39,239 bases of DNA from the NCBI GenBank assembly GCA_947303895.1, contig CAMYZQ010000003.1, positions 1-39,239 on the forward strand, in the 5' to 3' direction. A model generated the notes under the pieces. That model saw only the letters and a program-made list of their open reading frames with translations. It did not search any database and was not told where the DNA came from. How positions within the stretch are numbered: the first letter of the stretch is position 1; each line of letters opens with the position of its first letter. Of the stretch, positions 2,920-17,673 are shown piece by piece. The position numbers and the translations under genes were made by a program. The DNA comes from an uncultured Bacillota bacterium (GTDB lineage Bacteria; Bacillota_I; Bacilli_A; RF39; UBA660).

Positions 2920-2944
2920 AAAACATCTTAACGATGTTTTTTTA
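2920..2944. terminator. Bidirectional terminator between convergent genes
   Basis: AAAACATC/GATGTTTT stem (2920-2927 and 2933-2940), loop TTAAC, with T residues on the plus side and an A run giving T residues on the minus side. It separates the plus gene ending at 2919 from the minus gene ending at 2942. Confidence 0.85.
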
Positions 2945-3502
2945 TTTGAATTTATCAATATTAATAATTGGTATTCTACGAGGTATATTAGGGTAGTATG
3001 TTGAAAATACCCAATCAACTGTAAATACTGTTATAAGTATTATTATTATAGTTAATAATACTTTTTTATTACATTTATCTATAATCTTTTTTACTGCAGG
3101 AACTAACATATAAATAACAATTAATCCTGATAAACCAAATGCTATAGAATATGGTAAACATATTTTACCATTAATATTAAATGGTTTATCTGTATAATTC
3201 CACCAAGACATACCATAAGTATATTCCATGTATGTACTTGTTAAATATTCAGATATAGTACATATAACAAAAGACCCCATAAATATAAACCACTTTTTAT
3301 CCCTATATTCATATAAAAGAATATATATTAAAAATGCTCCTGATCCATATATAGGAAGCCAAGGACCATGTAGTTGACCACAGTTCATGAAATTACCATT
3401 TTTCATAAACTCCCATAATATTTCCCAAAACCATCCTATAAAACAGCTAATTAGAAAAAGTAGGTTATATTCCATGAATTTATTTATTCCATTTTTTTTC
3501 AT
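2942..3502 (-). CDS. CmpB-family membrane protein (putative ABC-transporter type IV, PF06541-like)
   Basis: 186 residues, about five membrane helices. The motifs CFIGWFWEILWE, GPWLPIYGSGA and the SWWNYTDKPFNINGKICLPYS segment match the CmpB-like putative ABC-transporter permease family; a paralogue lies at 6843-7523. The start at 3502 is chosen because AGGTGATTAC precedes the ATG and a minus-strand TGATATAAT lies at 3519-3527. The longer open frame to 3658 runs through tRNA-His and is not coding. It is monocistronic and divergent from the tRNA. No ATPase partner is nearby, so a transport role is uncertain. Confidence 0.8.
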   Translation of the reverse strand: MKKNGINKFMEYNLLFLISCFIGWFWEILWEFMKNGNFMNCGQLHGPWLPIYGSGAFLIYILLYEYRDKKWFIFMGSFVICTISEYLTSTYMEYTYGMSWWNYTDKPFNINGKICLPYSIAFGLSGLIVIYMLVPAVKKIIDKCNKKVLLTIIIILITVFTVDWVFSTYYPNIPRRIPIINIDKFK

Positions 3503-3518
3503 GTAATCACCTATAAAA

Positions 3519-3527
3519 ATTATATCA
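3519..3527 (-). promoter_or_regulatory. Extended -10 promoter for the CmpB-like gene
   Basis: Reading the minus strand, TGATATAAT at 3527-3519 lies about 17 nt before the ATG. It is back to back with the tRNA-His gene. Confidence 0.65.
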
Positions 3528-3580
3528 TAAATTACTTGTATATTTAAAAAATATGTGTTATATTTAATAAGTAATTTCAT

Positions 3581-3657
3581 GGCGGAATTGGTGAAGTGGT
3601 TAACACGGCAGATTGTGGCTCTGTTATGCAAGGGTTCGACTCCCTTATTTCGCCCCA
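3581..3657 (+). tRNA. tRNA-His (anticodon GTG)
   Basis: A 77-nt cloverleaf with a genome-encoded G-1 that faces C73 and an encoded CCA. Acceptor GCGGAAT pairs with ATTTCGC (one G-U). D stem GTG/CAC. Anticodon stem GCAGA/TCTGT with loop TTGTGGC, so the anticodon is GTG. T stem AAGGG/CCCTT with a TTCGACT loop. The extra G at -1 is the known identity element for HisRS. A strong terminator follows. Confidence 0.97.
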
Positions 3658-3670
3658 TTTGGAAAATAAA

Positions 3671-4614: not shown

Positions 4615-4621
4615 AAAACAA

Positions 4622-4649
4622 TGTAGTAAAATTGTAGTATTTTTGTAGT
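4622..4649 (+). promoter_or_regulatory. Three TGTAGT direct repeats at 11-bp spacing (candidate operator)
   Basis: TGTAGT occurs at 4622-4627, 4633-4638 and 4644-4649, each start exactly 11 bp after the last, ending 7 bp before the -35 of the following promoter. Helically phased short direct repeats are typical targets of cooperative ribbon-helix-helix dimers; the first gene downstream encodes such a domain. Role as an autoregulatory operator is inferred. Confidence 0.5.
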
Positions 4650-4655
4650 TTTCTA

Positions 4656-4684
4656 TTGACAAGTATTTTTTGTGGTGTTATTAT
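4656..4684 (+). promoter_or_regulatory. Promoter TTGACA-N17-TATTAT of the nucleotide-pool operon
   Basis: A perfect TTGACA at 4656-4661, a 17-nt spacer and TATTAT at 4679-4684. One of the few strong -35 elements in this window. Transcription should start near 4691, just ahead of the RBS, which rules out the upstream in-frame start at 4672. Confidence 0.85.
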
Positions 4685-4704
4685 CTATTCAAGAGGTGAG
4701 GAAA

Positions 4705-5289
4705 ATGGCTAATAAAACTAGTGCTATTAATATTCAAGTAGATAGCGATGTTAAGCAAGATGCAACATTAGTGTTAACAGAATTAGGTTTATCAATGAGT
4801 TCTGCAATTAATTTGTTCTTAAAACAAGTAGTTAAGAAGAATGGACTTCCATTTGCAGTTACTAACGTAGTTGATACTAAAAAAATATTAGATGTAGTAT
4901 GTGCATTAATCATGAAAGATGGTAAATGTTTAATTGCTAAAAGAAACAAAGATGATCATCTAAAGGGTAGATGGGAATTTCCTGGCGGAAGAAGACAAGG
5001 TCTTGAAGATGAAAAGAAAACTCTAGAAAGAGCATTTAATGAGGTCCTTGGAATTAAAGCTAATATTAATGATTATTTAACTCATAGTATATGTGAATAT
5101 CCAGGTCATATAGTAGATCTTAAAATTTATGAATGTGATTATGTAAGTGGAGAATTTACATCTCCAATACACTCAGAATATAAATGGGTTAACATTGAAG
5201 AATTATTAGATTATGATTTAGCTGATGCTGACGTAATACTATCTAAATTTCTTATTAGAAAATATATTGAAGAAAGTAGGAATAAATAA
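4705..5289 (+). CDS. RelB/DinJ ribbon-helix-helix domain fused to a degenerate Nudix domain
   Basis: 194 residues. Residues 1-52 match RelB/DinJ antitoxin DNA-binding domains (INIQVDSDVKQDA, LGLSMSSAINLFLKQVV, then the hallmark GLPF). Residues 60-190 are MutT-like Nudix with WEFPGG. The Nudix box is G95-x5-E101-x7-R109-A110-F-N-E113-V114-L-G116: two metal-binding glutamates (equivalent to E53 and E57 of E. coli MutT) are replaced by Ala110 and Val114, so hydrolase activity is doubtful. The next gene encodes an intact Nudix enzyme of the same type. By analogy with NrtR (Nudix plus winged helix), I infer a ligand-sensing repressor of this operon. RBS GAGGTGAG. No toxin gene is adjacent. Confidence 0.85.
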   Translation: MANKTSAINIQVDSDVKQDATLVLTELGLSMSSAINLFLKQVVKKNGLPFAVTNVVDTKKILDVVCALIMKDGKCLIAKRNKDDHLKGRWEFPGGRRQGLEDEKKTLERAFNEVLGIKANINDYLTHSICEYPGHIVDLKIYECDYVSGEFTSPIHSEYKWVNIEELLDYDLADADVILSKFLIRKYIEESRNK

Positions 5290-5702
5290 TGAAAGTAGTA
5301 GAAGTAGTAGCAGCAGTTATAAAAAAAGATAATAAGATACTTGGAACTGCTAGAGGTTATGGATATTTTAAAGGTATGTGGGAGTTTCCAGGTGGAAAAC
5401 CAGAAGTTGGTGAAACAAAAGAAGAAGCTTTAGTCCGTGAAATTAAAGAAGAATTAAATGCTGATATTAAAGTAGAAGATTATATATGCACAGTAGAATA
5501 TGATTATACTAATCCTGATTTTCATTTAATAATGCATACTTATTTTTGTGAATTATTAAATGATCATATAGAGATGGTTTATCATGATGAAGAAAAGTTA
5601 GAACATGAATCAATGAAATGGCTTTCTAAAGAAGAATTAGACTCTGTTGAATGGCTTGGAGCAGATATAGAAATAGTTAATAAGTTAAAAGAATTATTGT
5701 AG
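5289..5702 (+). CDS. mutT: MutT-like Nudix hydrolase (probable 8-oxo-dGTP/NTP diphosphatase)
   Basis: 137 residues. The Nudix box has all catalytic residues: G36-x5-E42-x7-R50-E51-I-K-E54-E55. The usual Gly at the end of the box is Asn57, a tolerated variation. The WEFPGGK sequence before the box and the SMKWLSKEEL segment resemble 8-oxo-(d)GTP-type MutT enzymes, which cleave oxidised NTPs to NMP and pyrophosphate. The ATG overlaps the stop of the regulator gene (TAATG), so translation is coupled. It shares WEFPGG and overall length with the Nudix half of the preceding protein, suggesting tandem duplication and divergence into sensor and enzyme. Confidence 0.9.
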   Translation: MKVVEVVAAVIKKDNKILGTARGYGYFKGMWEFPGGKPEVGETKEEALVREIKEELNADIKVEDYICTVEYDYTNPDFHLIMHTYFCELLNDHIEMVYHDEEKLEHESMKWLSKEELDSVEWLGADIEIVNKLKELL

Positions 5703-5711
5703 GAGGGTTAT

Positions 5712-6032
5712 ATGGTTAACATAAAAGAATTACAAGATAAAGTATATCAAAACAAAGTAAATCATGGGTTTAATACAACAAATATAGAAATGGAATTTTG
5801 TTTAGCTTATGGAGAACTTGGTGAAGCATATATTGCATATTTAAAGAAGAAAGAAGACCTAGGAGAAGAATTAGCAGACGTTATTATATATCTTCTTGGA
5901 ATATCTAAAATGCTTAATATTGATTTAGAAAAAGAAGTAGTAAATAAAATAGAAAAGAATAGTAAGAGGGTTTATAAAGAAAATTCAAAAGGGGTTCTTG
6001 TAAAAGAAGAAGAACTAAACAGCGAGGTATAA
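5712..6032 (+). CDS. MazG-like nucleotide pyrophosphohydrolase
   Basis: 106 residues, single all-alpha MazG-type domain. The metal-binding signature is present: ELGEAYIAY gives ExxE and EELADVIIY gives ExxD. Such enzymes hydrolyse non-canonical or surplus (d)NTPs to NMP and pyrophosphate. The short length fits the single-domain dimeric or tetrameric forms rather than full-length MazG. RBS AGGAGGGT, 9 nt after MutT. Together with MutT it makes a nucleotide house-cleaning cassette. Confidence 0.85.
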   Translation: MVNIKELQDKVYQNKVNHGFNTTNIEMEFCLAYGELGEAYIAYLKKKEDLGEELADVIIYLLGISKMLNIDLEKEVVNKIEKNSKRVYKENSKGVLVKEEELNSEV

Positions 6033-6033
6033 A

Positions 6034-6774
6034 ATGAAAAACACAAAAAAATTTTTAGAATTAAAAACATTATTTGAAAATTTATCTTATGATGATTTAG
6101 AGTCACTTTATACATTACTTTCATTAACTGGTAAAATTGATGATGAATTTAGTGAAGCAATTGATTCAACATATTTTCCTATGTATAATAAACTTGCAGA
6201 ATCAGGAGAATTTGAAGGAAGAAATGAATATGATAATTTAACAAGATATCATAATTTTAGTCTTTCAAAAATAATGGATTTATTTAATCGAATGACAGAT
6301 ACACAATTAAATGAAATATGCAAACTTGTTGGTAAAGCATATGGTAAAATCCTTGAAGAATTAAAAACGAATGAGTGCTCAGGTAAAATTGAAATGCTTC
6401 CTAAATTAGATGAATTCATAAAGAGATTTAATAAAAGAAAAGAAGCTAAAGAAATACTTAAAAAGCTAAGTAGGAGTGATCAAGTGTTATTTGGGTCAGC
6501 ATTAGATTTATCAGTTGGATTTGATGTGGGTGATGAAAAAGAAGTATTAAGAAGAATTATTAGTGAATCTAAGTCTAACAAGACGGGAAAACTAAACAAT
6601 AAACAGCTATATCATATTCATAATATAACAAGTAGCGCTTTAGGGGTTTTAAATTTAGAGGTGTTTGAAGATTTAACATATCAAAGAAGTTTAATAGAAG
6701 AATTTAATGGAAGAGTAAGTAAAGAAATAGAAAATAGAAAAGCGGGTAAAGGTGCTAAAACTTTAACTCCATAA
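6034..6774 (+). CDS. Unidentified helical protein, last gene of the nucleotide-pool operon
   Basis: 246 residues, starts one base after the MazG stop with GAGGTATAAA as RBS. Predicted soluble, almost wholly helical and charged; no membrane segment, no cysteine motif apart from isolated residues, no catalytic signature that I can name. Position as fourth gene behind a sensor-like protein, MutT and MazG suggests it acts on the same process, but that is context only. A strong terminator follows. Confidence 0.75.
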   Translation: MKNTKKFLELKTLFENLSYDDLESLYTLLSLTGKIDDEFSEAIDSTYFPMYNKLAESGEFEGRNEYDNLTRYHNFSLSKIMDLFNRMTDTQLNEICKLVGKAYGKILEELKTNECSGKIEMLPKLDEFIKRFNKRKEAKEILKKLSRSDQVLFGSALDLSVGFDVGDEKEVLRRIISESKSNKTGKLNNKQLYHIHNITSSALGVLNLEVFEDLTYQRSLIEEFNGRVSKEIENRKAGKGAKTLTP

Positions 6775-6784
6775 ATGTAAAAAA

Positions 6785-6816
6785 GGTGTAATCATATAAC
6801 TGATTACATCTTTTTT
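6785..6816 (+). terminator. Intrinsic terminator of the nucleotide-pool operon
   Basis: 10-bp stem GGTGTAATCA/TGATTACATC (one G-U), loop TATAAC, then TTTTTT. Confidence 0.9.
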
Positions 6817-6842
6817 ATATTATAATAATATTGGTGAATTAT

Positions 6843-7523
6843 ATGAGTATATTTTTAACTGGTGTTTTTATTTTTATCCTTGGTAGTATAGTAGGATGGT
6901 TATTAGAAATAGTTTATAGAAGATTTATGTTTGGTAAACTAGTTAATCCTGGTTTTTTAGTAGGACCTTATTTACCTATATATGGATTTGGTTTATTATC
7001 TATAACTATATTACATAATATACTTATGAGATTCGATTTAAGTCCTATTGTTGCTATTCTTTTAATGGGAGTAGTAATGACATTAATAGAACTTTTAGGT
7101 GGTTTATTTTGTTTATCACAAAAAGTTAAGTTATGGGATTATAGTGATAACTGGTTAAATTATAAAGGTATTATATGTCCTTTATATTCATCTATGTGGA
7201 TATTAGCAGGAGCTATTTATTATTTCTTCTTATATGATCCACTTATGTATGCTGTTAACTGGTTTAATGATAATATATCTTTTTCATATGTAATAGGAGT
7301 ATTATCAGGATTCTTAATAATAGATTTCTTTTATTCATCTAAGTTATATATTAAGATTAGAAAATATGCTAAGAAGAATAATATTGTTGTTAGATATGAA
7401 AAACTTAAAGATCATATTAAAGATGAAACTAAAAAAGCAGAAGAAAAATACTTTTTCTTGTTTCCATTTAGACAAAGTAGAAAGTTAATAGAATATCTGG
7501 ATAGTTATAGGGATAAGAAATAA
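6843..7523 (+). CDS. CmpB-family membrane protein (putative ABC-transporter type IV)
   Basis: 226 residues with about six membrane helices. GSIVGWLLEIVYR, GPYLPIYGFG and LWDYSDNWLNYKG match the same PF06541-like family as the gene at 2942-3502. The ATG at 6843 is preferred over TTG 6831 because GGTGA lies 5 nt upstream. A basic, lysine-rich cytosolic tail follows the last helix. It is coupled (TAATG, one-base overlap) to a lipase-like DUF2974 gene. Confidence 0.8.
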   Translation: MSIFLTGVFIFILGSIVGWLLEIVYRRFMFGKLVNPGFLVGPYLPIYGFGLLSITILHNILMRFDLSPIVAILLMGVVMTLIELLGGLFCLSQKVKLWDYSDNWLNYKGIICPLYSSMWILAGAIYYFFLYDPLMYAVNWFNDNISFSYVIGVLSGFLIIDFFYSSKLYIKIRKYAKKNNIVVRYEKLKDHIKDETKKAEEKYFFLFPFRQSRKLIEYLDSYRDKK

Positions 7524-10884: not shown

Positions 10885-13800
10885 ATGGAAAAGATTAAAA
10901 AAGGTTTTTGGAAAACCATTGATTTTATTTATAAACACAAAGTAATAGCATTCATTATAGCTTTTACTATAGCAACTTCATTTATTCTATATGGCGTATT
11001 TGCTACAGATGATGAATATGAAAATAAATTAAAGATCAAAGAAAATAGTGCTGTAATTAAAACTATTACAGATGCTCATGCAGAACTTGATGCTGATACT
11101 GATACTCATGGTAAAGATGCATCTGCTTCTAATGGAGTACTTAGAAACTTTGATAGTATTACATATAATGTAGAATATGTTTTAGACCATAAGACTGAAA
11201 CATTAACTACTCCAATAGAAGGTAGAAATGTTGTTGTAGACGTTATTGTTCCAAAGAATATTAATGCTACATTAACATCTACTGGTGGTGATGGTAGTAT
11301 TACTACTAAGACTTTGGGAGACAATTATAACTATTTCCATTTTGAAATGCATAATATTCCTACATCTAGTACATTAAGTCCATCATCATTTAGTTTTACT
11401 TTAGAAAATGTTAATACTCAAACTGTTGGTGCTAGCTTTACTCCAATAATTCTTATGAAGGAAGCTACAGATTCAGATAGTAAATCAATTGATGAATTAA
11501 CTCCAGATGAAAAAGAAGCATTTGCTGCTAATCCTGCAGGAAATGTTACTTGCCCTAATACTGTTACTAACTGTTTAACTACAATGACAGGTACATATAA
11601 TTATGATGTTGAGGTATATCAAGGAGCTCCTTTAACTGATAGTGTTGGACAAAAAACTTATCCAATAGGTGTTGGTGTTAAAGTTGAAAAGACTGTTGGT
11701 ATTTATGTTCCATCTAGTGTTTCATTCAACGTTAACTGGGCTTCAGAAGATGCTAGTGTATTAAATCTTCAATATGTTGAAGATTCTATGGCAGCATATA
11801 AAGACCCTTCAAAACAATATGCAATTTTCTATGATGGTATTAATGAATTACCAACATTAGGTAATACACTTACATTTGAAAATAATTTATTAACTATTAG
11901 TAGTTTAAAATATGATGGTAATACTTCGTTTGTAGGTTCTGCTTCATTTGAATTAAAGGCAGGAAGATCTGCAACTGATAGAAATGATAGAACATTTAAT
12001 GTGGCTGCAACTAACCTTGTTGTTCCTGGAACAGATTATTCTAAATTACAAGGTGGAGCTGTTACAGTTACAGATTATTATGAAAAATTTGTTGGAAGCT
12101 TTGCTTCACAAGTTGATATATATGCTGGTGAAGTATCTAAAGATCCTGGAGATGCAACTCCATTAGTTCCTGGTAATGCATACTTAAACTATAATCAAAG
12201 ATTTAGAGTAGTAGAAACTATTGCTTATGCTACTGATGGTAAAGGTGATGACTTATCAGAATTAGATAACTATATTAAAATTGATCCTACTGCATTCTTA
12301 ATTACTAAAGAAGATAGTGGTATAGTTGGTGCTCCAATGGCTAGTTTAAAATATGGTCAAGGTGAGTGGACGTCTGAATACTTTGATTTAACTGGTGTTG
12401 CTGGTTGCCCTACATCATTTAATGGATTAACTACAGAAAATATTATGAATCTATATGGTGGACCATGTATAGTTGAAAAGACCGGAGAAAATAGTCCATT
12501 TGTATGGAGTTTACAAGATGAAGATACATCTGATCTTCCAATAATAATTGTTAAAGCTATATTTGGTGATCAAACTTCTGATGAGATGAATGCTAATGCT
12601 TCATTAACAGCTAAAGTATCTTTAGCAGGCAAAATTAGAAAGAACCAAATTGGTTTAATTGATCATTCATATCAAATATCTACTTTATCAACAGGATACT
12701 TTAAGAATCCTCAAACTAATAATTTAGATTTATATTATTTATCAAAGAATATTAATACTAGTGATGTTACTAATGCTAAGAATGCTAATAACTATGTAAA
12801 GAGTAATTATAGTTTTGAAAATAGATTCTTAATTGCTAATAATAGTAATCCATGTAATGGTGAAGCATTATGTAATATCTCAGGTGATACAGTTCATATT
12901 ATGGGATTTAGAGTTAATAATCCTTCAGTAGTATCATACTTTAATAATTATCCTAAAACTTCATTCTATGATTATCCAATTGAATGGAGAATTCAAGTAA
13001 GTGCATCTTCTGATATAGATACTATTGAGTATGATCATGCAGCAATTGCTGTTACTATTCCTAAAACATTAAATTATTTATATGCAGAAATCTTAGTAAC
13101 TAATGGTGATAGTTCTAAGAGAATGGAAAAAACACCATCTAGAGTTATAGATGATGATCCTGGATATACAATTTATGTATATGATTTTGCTAAAGATGAA
13201 ATAACTAATGGAACTGTTAATACATTATCTATATTCACAGATATATTCATGAATACTAAGTCAGGAACACAAGTTCAAGTTAGTGCATCTGCTGATATGG
13301 AAGGATATATAGTTGATAATAGTGATATTCATAGAATATTAGATAATAGAACAACTAATCCATATAAGACTACAACTTCTGATACTATTACACTATATAA
13401 CAGTGCTTATATTAGTACATTTGGTAATGCTGCTCCAAGATATATTGAAAAAGCAGAACCATATACTTATACTATGAAAGCTTATAATAATTCAAGTGAT
13501 ACAAGTAATGCAGGCTATGCTTATGAAAATGCAACATTATATTATATGCTTCCATATATTGAAGATTATAACTATAAGTCATATAACAAGAAGTTTACTA
13601 ATGCTACTTATAAAGTTAAGATTAATGATAATTTAACTGGTTATACAGCATACTATACAACTGATACTGCTACTAACGTAATTAGTGATATTAATAATTT
13701 AACTAATTCTGATAATGCTACTAACTGGACTAAATGGACTAATCCAACTACTGAAGTAGAAGCTACAGCTGTTAAGATTGTTAAAGATGAAAACTGGGAT

Positions 13801-15012
13801 ATTGATACATACTTTGTTTCTGAAAACGGAGTTAATGTTATTGTTACACCAGTTAAGAATGCTCAAGCTGATGCATATTATAATGGATTTACTTTAGCAG
13901 TTGATAGACCTGCTGGATTTGCTCCTGAATGTGATGGAAGATATGATGAAGATCCAGAAAGACCATGTGATCCAAATGCATTAAGTAGAAGAATATTCTT
14001 CTATTCATCAGAATCACTTGTAGAAGTTTATAGTAGACAAATATCTGGATTTGTATTTGAAGATTATAACTATAGTGATATCTATGAAGTTGGTGAAGAC
14101 CAAATGAAGGATATAGTAGTAGAGTTATATAAATTAAATAATAATGAATATAATCCTGATGATGCAGCAAATCCAAATGCATATATTAATTCTGAAAATG
14201 ATGAATTAATAGCTACTACATCAACAGATGCTAATGGTTCATATATATTTACTGGATTAAATACAGGTAACTATTATGTATTATTTAGATATGATGGTAA
14301 TAAATATACACCAAGTAATAAATATGCTGGTGGAGAAAGTAATAGACAAGTTAATTCTAAGTCTATAGCTAAGAATCAAGCTGATAATGAAGCTGTTTCT
14401 GATATTCTTACATTAACTAGTCAAAATGGTTCTGAAAATAAGAATTATATAAACTTAGGATTAAGAATTAGAAAAGACTTTGCTGTAGAAATTAACAAGT
14501 ATATAACTAATATTGTTCAAACATCTAGTCAAGGTGTTAAGACATATGAATATGAAAAGGCTACTAAAGTTAATATAGATATTAGAAATATAAGAAATAC
14601 TAAATTTAGAGTAACTTATAGTTTTGATATAGTTAATACTAAATACTTCCCAGGTTATATTGGAATAATTGCTGACTTAGTTCCAGCAGGTATGACATTT
14701 GATGGAAGTTTAGAAGAAAATAAAGACTGGACAATTTATGATGGAGTTTTATATTATACAGGACTTCAAGATAAATTATTATTACCAGGAGATAGACAAT
14801 ACTTTAAATTAGTACTTGATTTAGATACTAATACAGGTGGAACATATACTAATATAGTAGCTGCTCAACAACCTATATTAATGGGTGAAAAAACATCTGG
14901 TGTTGATTTTAATTCAATTACATTTGAAGATGCTAATCCAGTAGAAACAACTGATCCTAATACTGGTACTGATACAGGTAATACTGGATCACAAGGAAAT
15001 AACGGAGAGTAG
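10885..15012 (+). CDS. Large secreted surface protein with SdrD-B-like and DUF11-like domains
   Basis: 1375 residues. A basic N-terminus plus one hydrophobic segment (about 15-39, ending YGVFA-TDD) forms a signal peptide or anchor. Most of the protein is Thr/Asn/Ser-rich beta-type sequence. Residues about 1052-1150 are a prealbumin-like SdrD-B domain (SGFVFEDYNYSDIYEVGED, then TSTDANGSYIFTGLNTGNYYV). Residues about 1198-1345 resemble DUF11 (DIVNTKYFPGYIGIIADLVPAGM). The C-terminus is a Thr/Gly/Asn-rich tail with no LPxTG motif or membrane helix, so it is secreted, N-terminally anchored, or held by its partner. It is followed at once by the thioester/CnaB gene, probably co-transcribed. Likely adhesin or fibre component. 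Confidence 0.85.
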   Translation: MEKIKKGFWKTIDFIYKHKVIAFIIAFTIATSFILYGVFATDDEYENKLKIKENSAVIKTITDAHAELDADTDTHGKDASASNGVLRNFDSITYNVEYVLDHKTETLTTPIEGRNVVVDVIVPKNINATLTSTGGDGSITTKTLGDNYNYFHFEMHNIPTSSTLSPSSFSFTLENVNTQTVGASFTPIILMKEATDSDSKSIDELTPDEKEAFAANPAGNVTCPNTVTNCLTTMTGTYNYDVEVYQGAPLTDSVGQKTYPIGVGVKVEKTVGIYVPSSVSFNVNWASEDASVLNLQYVEDSMAAYKDPSKQYAIFYDGINELPTLGNTLTFENNLLTISSLKYDGNTSFVGSASFELKAGRSATDRNDRTFNVAATNLVVPGTDYSKLQGGAVTVTDYYEKFVGSFASQVDIYAGEVSKDPGDATPLVPGNAYLNYNQRFRVVETIAYATDGKGDDLSELDNYIKIDPTAFLITKEDSGIVGAPMASLKYGQGEWTSEYFDLTGVAGCPTSFNGLTTENIMNLYGGPCIVEKTGENSPFVWSLQDEDTSDLPIIIVKAIFGDQTSDEMNANASLTAKVSLAGKIRKNQIGLIDHSYQISTLSTGYFKNPQTNNLDLYYLSKNINTSDVTNAKNANNYVKSNYSFENRFLIANNSNPCNGEALCNISGDTVHIMGFRVNNPSVVSYFNNYPKTSFYDYPIEWRIQVSASSDIDTIEYDHAAIAVTIPKTLNYLYAEILVTNGDSSKRMEKTPSRVIDDDPGYTIYVYDFAKDEITNGTVNTLSIFTDIFMNTKSGTQVQVSASADMEGYIVDNSDIHRILDNRTTNPYKTTTSDTITLYNSAYISTFGNAAPRYIEKAEPYTYTMKAYNNSSDTSNAGYAYENATLYYMLPYIEDYNYKSYNKKFTNATYKVKINDNLTGYTAYYTTDTATNVISDINNLTNSDNATNWTKWTNPTTEVEATAVKIVKDENWDIDTYFVSENGVNVIVTPVKNAQADAYYNGFTLAVDRPAGFAPECDGRYDEDPERPCDPNALSRRIFFYSSESLVEVYSRQISGFVFEDYNYSDIYEVGEDQMKDIVVELYKLNNNEYNPDDAANPNAYINSENDELIATTSTDANGSYIFTGLNTGNYYVLFRYDGNKYTPSNKYAGGESNRQVNSKSIAKNQADNEAVSDILTLTSQNGSENKNYINLGLRIRKDFAVEINKYITNIVQTSSQGVKTYEYEKATKVNIDIRNIRNTKFRVTYSFDIVNTKYFPGYIGIIADLVPAGMTFDGSLEENKDWTIYDGVLYYTGLQDKLLLPGDRQYFKLVLDLDTNTGGTYTNIVAAQQPILMGEKTSGVDFNSITFEDANPVETTDPNTGTDTGNTGSQGNNGE

Positions 15013-15021
15013 GTGATTAGT

Positions 15022-17673
15022 ATGAAGAAGAAAAAATTACTATATGCCTTAGTCTTATTATTAGTGATTGCTATACCATTTACTGTTGTATTTGGTAAGA
15101 AAGCAGGATTAAACTTTAATTTCTTATCGAAATTAATGGGTAGTCCTGCTCAGGTAGTCTCTAATACATATAGATATAATAATGTATCATTTTCTATGAA
15201 AGATATATGGGATTCTGAGTCTACTCCTACATTCTATATAGGACCAAATGAACATACAGGTATATTAAGATTACAATATATACACGAGGCTCAATCATCT
15301 GATGGAAAATATTATCATGCTTATTGTATAGATAGAGGTATTTCTATAGATGATGAAGGTCATCCTTATATGGATGCATATGTTTATGATGATAATTTTG
15401 AAGGTTTAACTTCTAAAAATATTGATGGAGAAGTTACTGCTACACTTACTGCAGAACAAATTGAAACTCTTCAAGATATCTTAGCTTCAGGATATCATTA
15501 TTCTGAAGACCATACAAAATCAATTGATAGGATTAGTACTAGAGCAGAAAAAGAAAAAATATTTGTTAAACAAATACTTGTTTGGGAAGTAATGGGTGGA
15601 GGAAGAACTGGATTACAAGATGTTCCTGAAGCTTGTTCTATGGCTTCCAACTGTTCATATAATGTTATTATTTCTCCAAAGAGTAATTTACTTAGAGAAT
15701 ATAAAGCTGCTCTTCAAGCTGCTAGAGAGTATAGAAGTAAAAGAAAAGCTGAAGATACTTATGCTCCAGCACTATTCAAAAACTATACTATGAGATGGGA
15801 TTCAAAACAACAAAAGTATACAACAGGTGTTATTAGTAATGCACTTGGTGGATTTACTTCTAACTGCCATCCTGTAGATAATGATAATGTACAAGTATCT
15901 GTATCTAATGACCATGCTACAGTTACTTCAACTGTACCTGTTAATAATGTAACTATTAATTGTAGTTATGTTGTTGGTAGTGGTACAAGTAAATGGTGGT
16001 ATTATGATTTCCCTGAACATAAATGGTGGCAAAGAATTGTTAATGGTGAAGGTGGTTCAACACATACTGCATCGTTTACTGTAGGAACTGAAGAAGCACA
16101 ATTATATATTGTTAAATATAATCAAGAAGGATCTAGAATTAATGGTTCTAAATTTACTTTAACGTTAAAGAATGATCCGTCTGTTAAGATTAATATTAAT
16201 GGAGATACTAGTAAAGTATCATTAGAAAGAAGTGGTGTATATATTCTTACTGAAACTGATACACCATTTGGATATGATACAATCCATCAAACAGAGTTAA
16301 ATATTAATCTAAATACTAGATCTATTAGTTCATCTAATACAGGTGAAGTACAAGCAACATTTAATGATAATGAACATGCTTTTGAAGTTAAAGTAGTTGA
16401 TAATTATAAAGCATTTAATATTAGTAAGGTTAATGAAAGTAATCAACCATTAAAAGGCGTTACATTCAAGATTTATAAAGGATCTAACTTTAATACTGAA
16501 GTTAAGTTTAATAAGAGTAACAATGTGTATAGTTATTCTACTAATGGAAGTGTTTCAAGTATTGTAGACAATAATTATTCTACATATACAATTAGATTCC
16601 TAGAACAAGGTATTTATAAAGTAGTTGAAACTGATACTCCTAGTCCATATGTACTAGCTTCTAAAGAAGAAGATAGATCACATTATATTAAAGTAGGAGA
16701 TAAATACGATATATTTGATTGTAAGAATGATTCTACATGTAAGAATGCATCTTTAACTGTTAATAATACATTAACATTTAAGAACTATATAACTAAAGTT
16801 AATATTATTAAAACTGGTAATGGAGGTCTTCCTTTAGCAGGTGTTAAATTTGTATTATTAAATGAAGGAAAAGATAAGTATTATAAAGCAAGTAGTAATA
16901 ATGGAGTATATCAATATTCTGGAACTGCTAATGAAATAAGTGGTGCTACAGTATTTATTACTGATTCTAATGGTAATATTAGAATTAATAGTCTTCCTGT
17001 TGGAACATACTATATAAAAGAAATAGAAACTATTGATCCATATGTATTACCTGAAGGTGATGCGGCTTATACTAAGTTAGTAGTAGATATGAAATCTAAC
17101 GGACCTACTGTTAATAACAAAACATCATGTTCAGAAGGTATTTCTAATGCTACTAAAGAGTTTAACTTCTATAAAGTAGATGAAAATGGTAATTACTTAT
17201 CTGGTGGAAAATTCAAGATTCAAAGATTTAATGATGATACTAATAAATATGAAGATATTAAACTAGTATCTGTAGAAAATGAAGGTCAATATCAAGAAAA
17301 AGCAAATGTATTTAAAGAAGATGAAGATGGTAAAGTTCAATTTACTTTATCTCATGGTATTGCTACATTTGTAGATATGACTCCAGGAACTACATATAGA
17401 ATACTTGAAATTGAAGCTCCTAAAGGATATGAACTTGCTAATGTAGATAATAGTGCAGTTATTAAACTAGATAGAAAAGGTTATGCTAAAGGATCTGCTA
17501 CTATTATTAACCAAACTAAGAAATTAGAGGGCTCTACTGCACAAGCTGAATTAATAATAGAAATTCAAACTGGTAGAAAACTAATTAGATATGGTTTAAT
17601 TATTGCAGGTACATTAATTCTTATTGCAGGATTAATGATTGCATTAATATATATATCAAAAAAGAGAAAATAA
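15022..17673 (+). CDS. Wall- or membrane-anchored adhesin with thioester (TQXA-like) domain and four CnaB/SpaA domains
   Basis: 883 residues. Signal peptide (residues 1-25). An N-terminal thioester domain has Cys102 in YHAYCIDRG and Gln184 in FVKQILVWEV, matching the Cys and TQxA-type Gln that form the reactive internal bond. Four prealbumin-like domains start near 360, 463, 592 and 713, each with a first-strand Lys (IVKYN, ISKVN, IIKTG, FYKVD) and a late Glu (TETDTPFGY, VETDTPSPY, EIETIDPYV, EIEAPKGYE), the pattern of isopeptide-stabilised pilins. The C-terminus is EIQTG (847-851), a membrane helix (about 858-879) and KKRK, laid out like a sortase signal but without LPxTG. The ATG at 15022 follows AGGTGATT. 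Confidence 0.88.
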   Translation: MKKKKLLYALVLLLVIAIPFTVVFGKKAGLNFNFLSKLMGSPAQVVSNTYRYNNVSFSMKDIWDSESTPTFYIGPNEHTGILRLQYIHEAQSSDGKYYHAYCIDRGISIDDEGHPYMDAYVYDDNFEGLTSKNIDGEVTATLTAEQIETLQDILASGYHYSEDHTKSIDRISTRAEKEKIFVKQILVWEVMGGGRTGLQDVPEACSMASNCSYNVIISPKSNLLREYKAALQAAREYRSKRKAEDTYAPALFKNYTMRWDSKQQKYTTGVISNALGGFTSNCHPVDNDNVQVSVSNDHATVTSTVPVNNVTINCSYVVGSGTSKWWYYDFPEHKWWQRIVNGEGGSTHTASFTVGTEEAQLYIVKYNQEGSRINGSKFTLTLKNDPSVKININGDTSKVSLERSGVYILTETDTPFGYDTIHQTELNINLNTRSISSSNTGEVQATFNDNEHAFEVKVVDNYKAFNISKVNESNQPLKGVTFKIYKGSNFNTEVKFNKSNNVYSYSTNGSVSSIVDNNYSTYTIRFLEQGIYKVVETDTPSPYVLASKEEDRSHYIKVGDKYDIFDCKNDSTCKNASLTVNNTLTFKNYITKVNIIKTGNGGLPLAGVKFVLLNEGKDKYYKASSNNGVYQYSGTANEISGATVFITDSNGNIRINSLPVGTYYIKEIETIDPYVLPEGDAAYTKLVVDMKSNGPTVNNKTSCSEGISNATKEFNFYKVDENGNYLSGGKFKIQRFNDDTNKYEDIKLVSVENEGQYQEKANVFKEDEDGKVQFTLSHGIATFVDMTPGTTYRILEIEAPKGYELANVDNSAVIKLDRKGYAKGSATIINQTKKLEGSTAQAELIIEIQTGRKLIRYGLIIAGTLILIAGLMIALIYISKKRK

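Follow-up and report, generated by a model that had tools for sequence, protein, structure and literature searches.

A RelB/DinJ-Nudix fusion at the head of an apparent operon

The window, a 39,239-nucleotide stretch of DNA from an uncultured Bacillota bacterium (contig CAMYZQ010000003.1), carries a set of closely spaced forward-strand genes, the first of which encodes an antitoxin-type ribbon-helix-helix (RHH) domain joined to a Nudix domain. The features are as follows.

4622..4648, + strand: putative operator made of three 11-bp-period direct repeats (TGTAG cores at 4622, 4633 and 4644); identified by conservation.
4656..4684, + strand: promoter TTGACA-17-TATTAT, 11/12 consensus, with TG before the -10 box; from a scan and from TTGAC conserved in 18 loci.
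4705..5289, + strand: RelB/DinJ-Nudix fusion protein, 194 aa; domain searches and orthologue alignment.
4705..4875, + strand: RelB/DinJ ribbon-helix-helix domain, residues 1-57; TIGR02384 above cutoff, PF04221, DinJ 9lew.
4984..5055, + strand: degenerate Nudix box, residues 94-117, with A110 and V114 replacing Glu; alignment of copies.
5289..5702, + strand: NudG/MutT-like Nudix enzyme, intact, 137 aa; domain searches and motif.
5712..6032, + strand: MazG-like NTP pyrophosphatase, 106 aa, conserved acidic motif ELGE/EELAD; Pfam, alignment and fold comparison.
6034..6774, + strand: protein X, two copies of a helical domain of about 130 residues, fast evolving, no known family; sequence and fold searches.
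6776..6820, + strand: intrinsic terminator-like hairpin ending in a T run; fold -20.3 kcal/mol, z -9.2.

The fusion reading frame runs from the ATG at 4705, the same start Met that its orthologues use, to the stop at 5289, with GAGGTGAGG as its ribosome-binding site. The start of the second gene overlaps the fusion stop by one base, gaps of 9 bases and 1 base precede the MazG-like and X genes, and the terminator-like hairpin follows X. The fusion, Nudix, MazG-like and X genes appear to form one operon. Genes for CmpB-like (PF06541) membrane proteins, at 2942-3658 (-) and 6831-7523 (+), flank this region, as in some relatives. Farther along the window, at 10885-17673, lie the genes of two large proteins of surface type, which carry SdrD_B/CarboxypepD_reg and SpaA domains.

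The N-terminal half of the fusion scores 63.4 bits with the NCBIfam RelB_DinJ model TIGR02384, above its cutoff of 45.65, and matches Pfam RelB (PF04221) over residues 6-59 (1.7e-11). Residues 59-183 form a NudG/MutT-type Nudix domain that matches PF14815 (NUDIX_4, 1.6e-14, residues 65-176) and PF00293; the order is RHH, then Nudix, and nothing lies C-terminal of the latter. NudG and MutT are the best curated relatives of this domain. With 89.5 bits against the curated NudG model PRK10546, whose cutoff is 156, the Nudix half is by sequence a clear homologue of NudG and no equivalog. A 17-orthologue profile gave the same division, with DinJ (9lew, 2.4e-7) for the first half and Escherichia coli NudG (2rrk, 1.5e-18) for the second. 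The AlphaFold model of the fusion is reasonable for the Nudix half only, the RHH half being of low confidence, and a Foldseek search with it again placed NudG on top. A PADLOC match to PDC-S07 covers the Nudix domain alone and was regarded as generic.

Full-length fusions were found in one family only

Searches for RelB-Nudix fusions returned 18 distinct full-length copies, about 80-100% identical, all in one family of uncultured Bacilli; this conservation rules out chance or an annotation artefact. Ten of 291 sampled genomes, spread over eight genera and including rumen and gut records, carry the fusion. Across family, order, class and phylum samples, full-length copies are confined to the window's own family, and the class and phylum samples yielded no full-length relatives in other families. 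None was found in IMG/VR, INPHARED or PLSDB, and a phage or plasmid origin was rejected for this reason. One phage-collection match, H23, is to an unannotated record and covers fusion residues 2-116. The open-access literature searched held no RelB-Nudix fusion. Fusion identity is only loosely coupled to PNPase identity (89% versus 98% for genome G007; 86% versus 80% for genome G036), which makes some horizontal transfer of the fusion possible.

The Nudix half has lost catalytic glutamates and is maintained

In the fusion pseudo-box, GGRRQGLEDEKKTLERAFNEVLGI, A110 and V114 occupy the first and last Glu positions of REXXEE, and E113 is retained. The original prediction had singled out these two substitutions, and they hold across the family: the equivalent of MutT Glu53 (position 110) is Ala or Ser in all 18 distinct fused copies, and the equivalent of Glu57 (position 114) is not Glu in 17 of them. 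The exception, L094 (the same as L045), has Glu at 114 but Asp at the Glu56 position. Every fused copy thus has RAxxEV or similar in place of the REXXEE of NudG/MutT hydrolases. In contrast, REXXEE is intact in 69/69 unfused Nudix relatives from the same searches, a 70th row with a lost motif being a fragment of a fusion copy and left out of the 69. Intact boxes were looked for among close homologues and belong only to unfused enzymes; no fused homologue retains Glu at position 110. Two motif residues, E113 and E101, persist in nearly all fused copies. MutT E53A loses function in E. coli (PMC11460165), and MsNrtR, with the box RQUXEKXDU, shows no detectable hydrolysis (PMC6800001). The Nudix half is predicted from its box to be catalytically dead.

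The domain is nonetheless under purifying selection: among the closest pairs its dN/dS is mostly 0.01-0.2, which indicates that it is maintained, and we rejected a decaying enzyme on these values. In a tree built from few alignment columns, in which deeper forks are unreliable, the fused copies form a single clade (support 100/99) within a group (94/100) that includes intact-box NudG-like enzymes of the same family, mostly 40-49% identical. Four NudG residues, Glu33, Asp118, Arg72 and Arg77, we take to be important pocket positions. The first two correspond to E91 and D176, invariant across fused copies and common to most unfused relatives too; the two Arg positions are invariant Cys130 and His135 in the fused copies. 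Most of the remaining substrate-side Nudix sequence is likewise invariant among them.

Conserved repeats precede the promoter

An upstream alignment of the 18 loci shows a single conserved block in surrounding DNA that is not conserved. Its order is always three TGTAG cores at an exact 11-bp period, TTGAC 12-13 bases past the start of the last core, and the -10 box; L046 is the sole locus with TATAG in the first repeat. Exact TGTAGTANNNTTGTAG is confined to the fusion promoter in eight related fusion genomes, with two overlapping matches each, and gave zero matches in five genomes of the same genus that lack the fusion. The window's genome has one extra exact match, within a RuvX-like coding gene. 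A wider regulon was rejected, since outside the fusion promoter exact tandem sites either do not occur or, in that one case, lie inside coding sequence.

Repeats in front of a gene's own promoter are a feature of antitoxin-type autoregulation, and those at 4622-4648 form a putative operator on grounds of conservation. Antitoxin genes of the same bacterial family have similar sites: in L077 and L114 the same core recurs every 11 bp and TTGAC is about as far from the start codon as in the fusion loci, and in the DinJ-type antitoxin gene L012 the core recurs at 22 bp. We infer that the fusion retained an antitoxin-type operator and, with it, autoregulation. Descent from an antitoxin operator, together with the near-consensus promoter, favors repression; activation is also possible because activators, too, bind at positions upstream of -35 such as this one. 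L077 (G036 contig 19) belongs to a conventional DinJ-YafQ pair; its genome carries the fusion as well, and since both promoters are preceded by similar repeats, cross-talk between them is a possibility. At locus L135, a separate RelB-like protein of about 62 aa without a long tail has an upstream inverted repeat, TGTAGTAGATTACTACA, whose half-site is that of the fusion operator.

Operon partners

The partner genes are as originally predicted: an intact Nudix enzyme (box GGKPEVGETKEEALVREIKEELNA), then a MazG-like protein (Pfam MazG-like, 27.5 bits against a cutoff of 27), then a helical protein, in the order proposed behind the fusion. As retrieved, 9 of the 18 neighborhoods lack the intact Nudix gene, and the constant core is the fusion, the MazG-like protein and X. 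The MazG-like gene is found in all 18 loci, where it comes straight after the fusion or behind a Nudix or X gene, and its acidic residues are invariant; its weak structural relatives include dCTP pyrophosphatase, and relatives of it also occur in four fusion-free genomes. In L047 the fusion operon contains a dCMP-deaminase-like gene (6736-7248; ComEB 1.5e-21, below its cutoff), which supports a cytosine-nucleotide theme. A short Nudix-like ORF follows that gene.

Protein X is encoded in 17 operons and, in the 18th, begins before the contig end. Within the family sample it occurs in 9/9 fusion genomes versus 1/28 others (p about 8e-8), a comparison in which relatives elsewhere may have been missed because fusion operons supplied the definition of X, a fast-diverging protein. 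X proteins are 16-54% identical to that of the window, whereas the fusions are 80-98% identical to the window's. Each X protein contains between one and three helical domains, each about 130 residues long. A single-domain homologue is all-helical in its AlphaFold model (pLDDT 85.7). Searches of Pfam, PADLOC and PHROGs returned nothing for X, PDB sequence searches gave nothing convincing, and no fold matched at E <= 0.001. It is a new helical domain family, present in tandem copies and hypervariable beside a nearly invariant regulator (L031-L047 and the window).

DISCUSSION

Known regulators of the NrtR/AraR type likewise combine an impaired-box Nudix domain, used as a sensor, with a DNA-binding domain, and control genes of related metabolism (PMC4666351, PMC6800001). 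This argues for a sensor role for the fusion, with its impaired signature in 18/18 copies. However, NrtR has an N-terminal Nudix domain and a C-terminal winged helix (PMC4666351), whereas the fusion has an N-terminal RHH domain and a C-terminal Nudix domain of the NudG type. The differences in domain order, DNA-binding fold and Nudix subfamily place the fusion outside the NrtR/AraR family and lead us to infer an independent origin, in agreement with the original prediction. Its RHH domain and TGTAG repeats resemble those of DinJ-YafQ, but the fusion has a Nudix domain where RelB/DinJ antitoxins have a toxin-binding tail, and none of the 18 loci has a RelE/YafQ-family toxin gene beside it. The gene context thus argues against an ordinary antitoxin. 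E. coli NudG (Orf135, CTP pyrophosphohydrolase) is the closest Nudix relative in sequence and fold, but the fusion lacks the catalytic Glu, has two pocket Arg replaced and is joined to an RHH domain; its motif argues against a NudG enzyme.

We consider it probable that the fusion is a ligand-responsive autoregulator built from the DNA-binding half of a DinJ-type antitoxin and a dead NudG-type sensor. This reading draws on the uniform loss of Glu in a single clade set against intact unfused relatives, the low dN/dS, the essentially unique conserved repeats, the MazG-like gene in every operon, and the cores shared with antitoxin genes L077, L114 and L012. After the two halves were joined, the Nudix half would have lost catalysis and been retained to bind a nucleotide. 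RHH-domain dimers would occupy the three 11-bp repeats that adjoin the -35 box on its upstream side, and would govern the operon's single promoter. A nucleotide in the Nudix pocket would alter DNA affinity; the likeliest outcome is release of repression, with NTP pyrophosphatases being made as their substrate accumulates. NrtR/AraR proteins bind DNA less tightly once an effector, such as ADP-ribose or arabinose, is present. The original prediction had the protein control its own sanitation enzymes through the DNA at 4620-4690. The conserved repeats, which that prediction did not mention, do lie within that stretch and are probably autoregulatory; the intact Nudix gene is missing from the retrieved neighborhood in half of the loci.

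An autoregulator without a small-molecule ligand, in which the Nudix half just dimerises or docks the intact Nudix, the MazG-like protein or X, seems unlikely. Non-enzymatic Nudix domains are known in protein-interaction roles (PMC5389931), and Cys130 and His135 have replaced the NudG pocket Arg residues, but the invariance of E91, D176 and most of the substrate-side sequence fits a retained ligand site. Still less likely is an unusual toxin-antitoxin module whose toxin, either X or the MazG-like protein, is neutralised by a Nudix half that stands in for the toxin-binding tail. The DinJ ancestry of the RHH half, the position of the fusion as first gene and the association of fast-evolving X with it would all suit such a module. 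However, the antitoxin tail is lost, a RelE/YafQ-type toxin adjoins 0/18 copies, the MazG-like protein retains an enzyme active site, and nothing toxin-like matches X, whose domain number ranges from one to three beside a near-constant fusion, unlike in a tightly matched pair. An altered hydrolase, still active and also DNA-binding, is very improbable despite the retained E113 and E101, since all copies have Ala or Ser in place of Glu53, MutT E53A is inactive and MsNrtR shows no detectable hydrolysis.

For the autoregulator that we favor, the ligand had been proposed as a nucleotide, perhaps oxidised. An oxidised nucleotide is now one of several options, as the likeness to NudG points no less to cytosine nucleotides or (p)ppGpp than to 8-oxo-dGTP. 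E91 and D176 are common to most unfused relatives and do not single out one ligand. A cytosine nucleotide (dCTP or CTP, possibly 5-hydroxylated) is our leading candidate, at somewhat under even chances. Mycobacterial MazG prefers 5-OH-dCTP as substrate (PMC3855555), and this preference, with the dCTP pyrophosphatase likeness of the MazG-like protein, points to such a ligand without proving it. (p)ppGpp, which NudG and MutT bind and hydrolyse (PMC7593582), is a minor candidate, on a par with some other ligand or none, and 8-oxo-dGTP ranks slightly lower. More speculatively, an antitoxin DNA-binding domain and a NudG that later died may have made a sensor of either a cytosine nucleotide or (p)ppGpp that serves a single operon and controls NTP pyrophosphatases and the hypervariable X, possibly in a stress or anti-phage nucleotide-pool response.

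The fusion is probably a nucleotide sensor that regulates the operon it belongs to, a wiring otherwise known just from unrelated Nudix regulators. If so, it would be a second, independent conversion of a Nudix enzyme into a transcriptional sensor, here one that contacts DNA through an antitoxin domain, and would show that antitoxin domains can exit toxin-antitoxin systems and become metabolic regulators. The steps of this conversion are testable because intact unfused enzymes, DinJ-type antitoxins and related operators persist in the same family. Should the ligand be a damaged or excess nucleotide, the fusion would let these bacteria sense their nucleotide pool directly.
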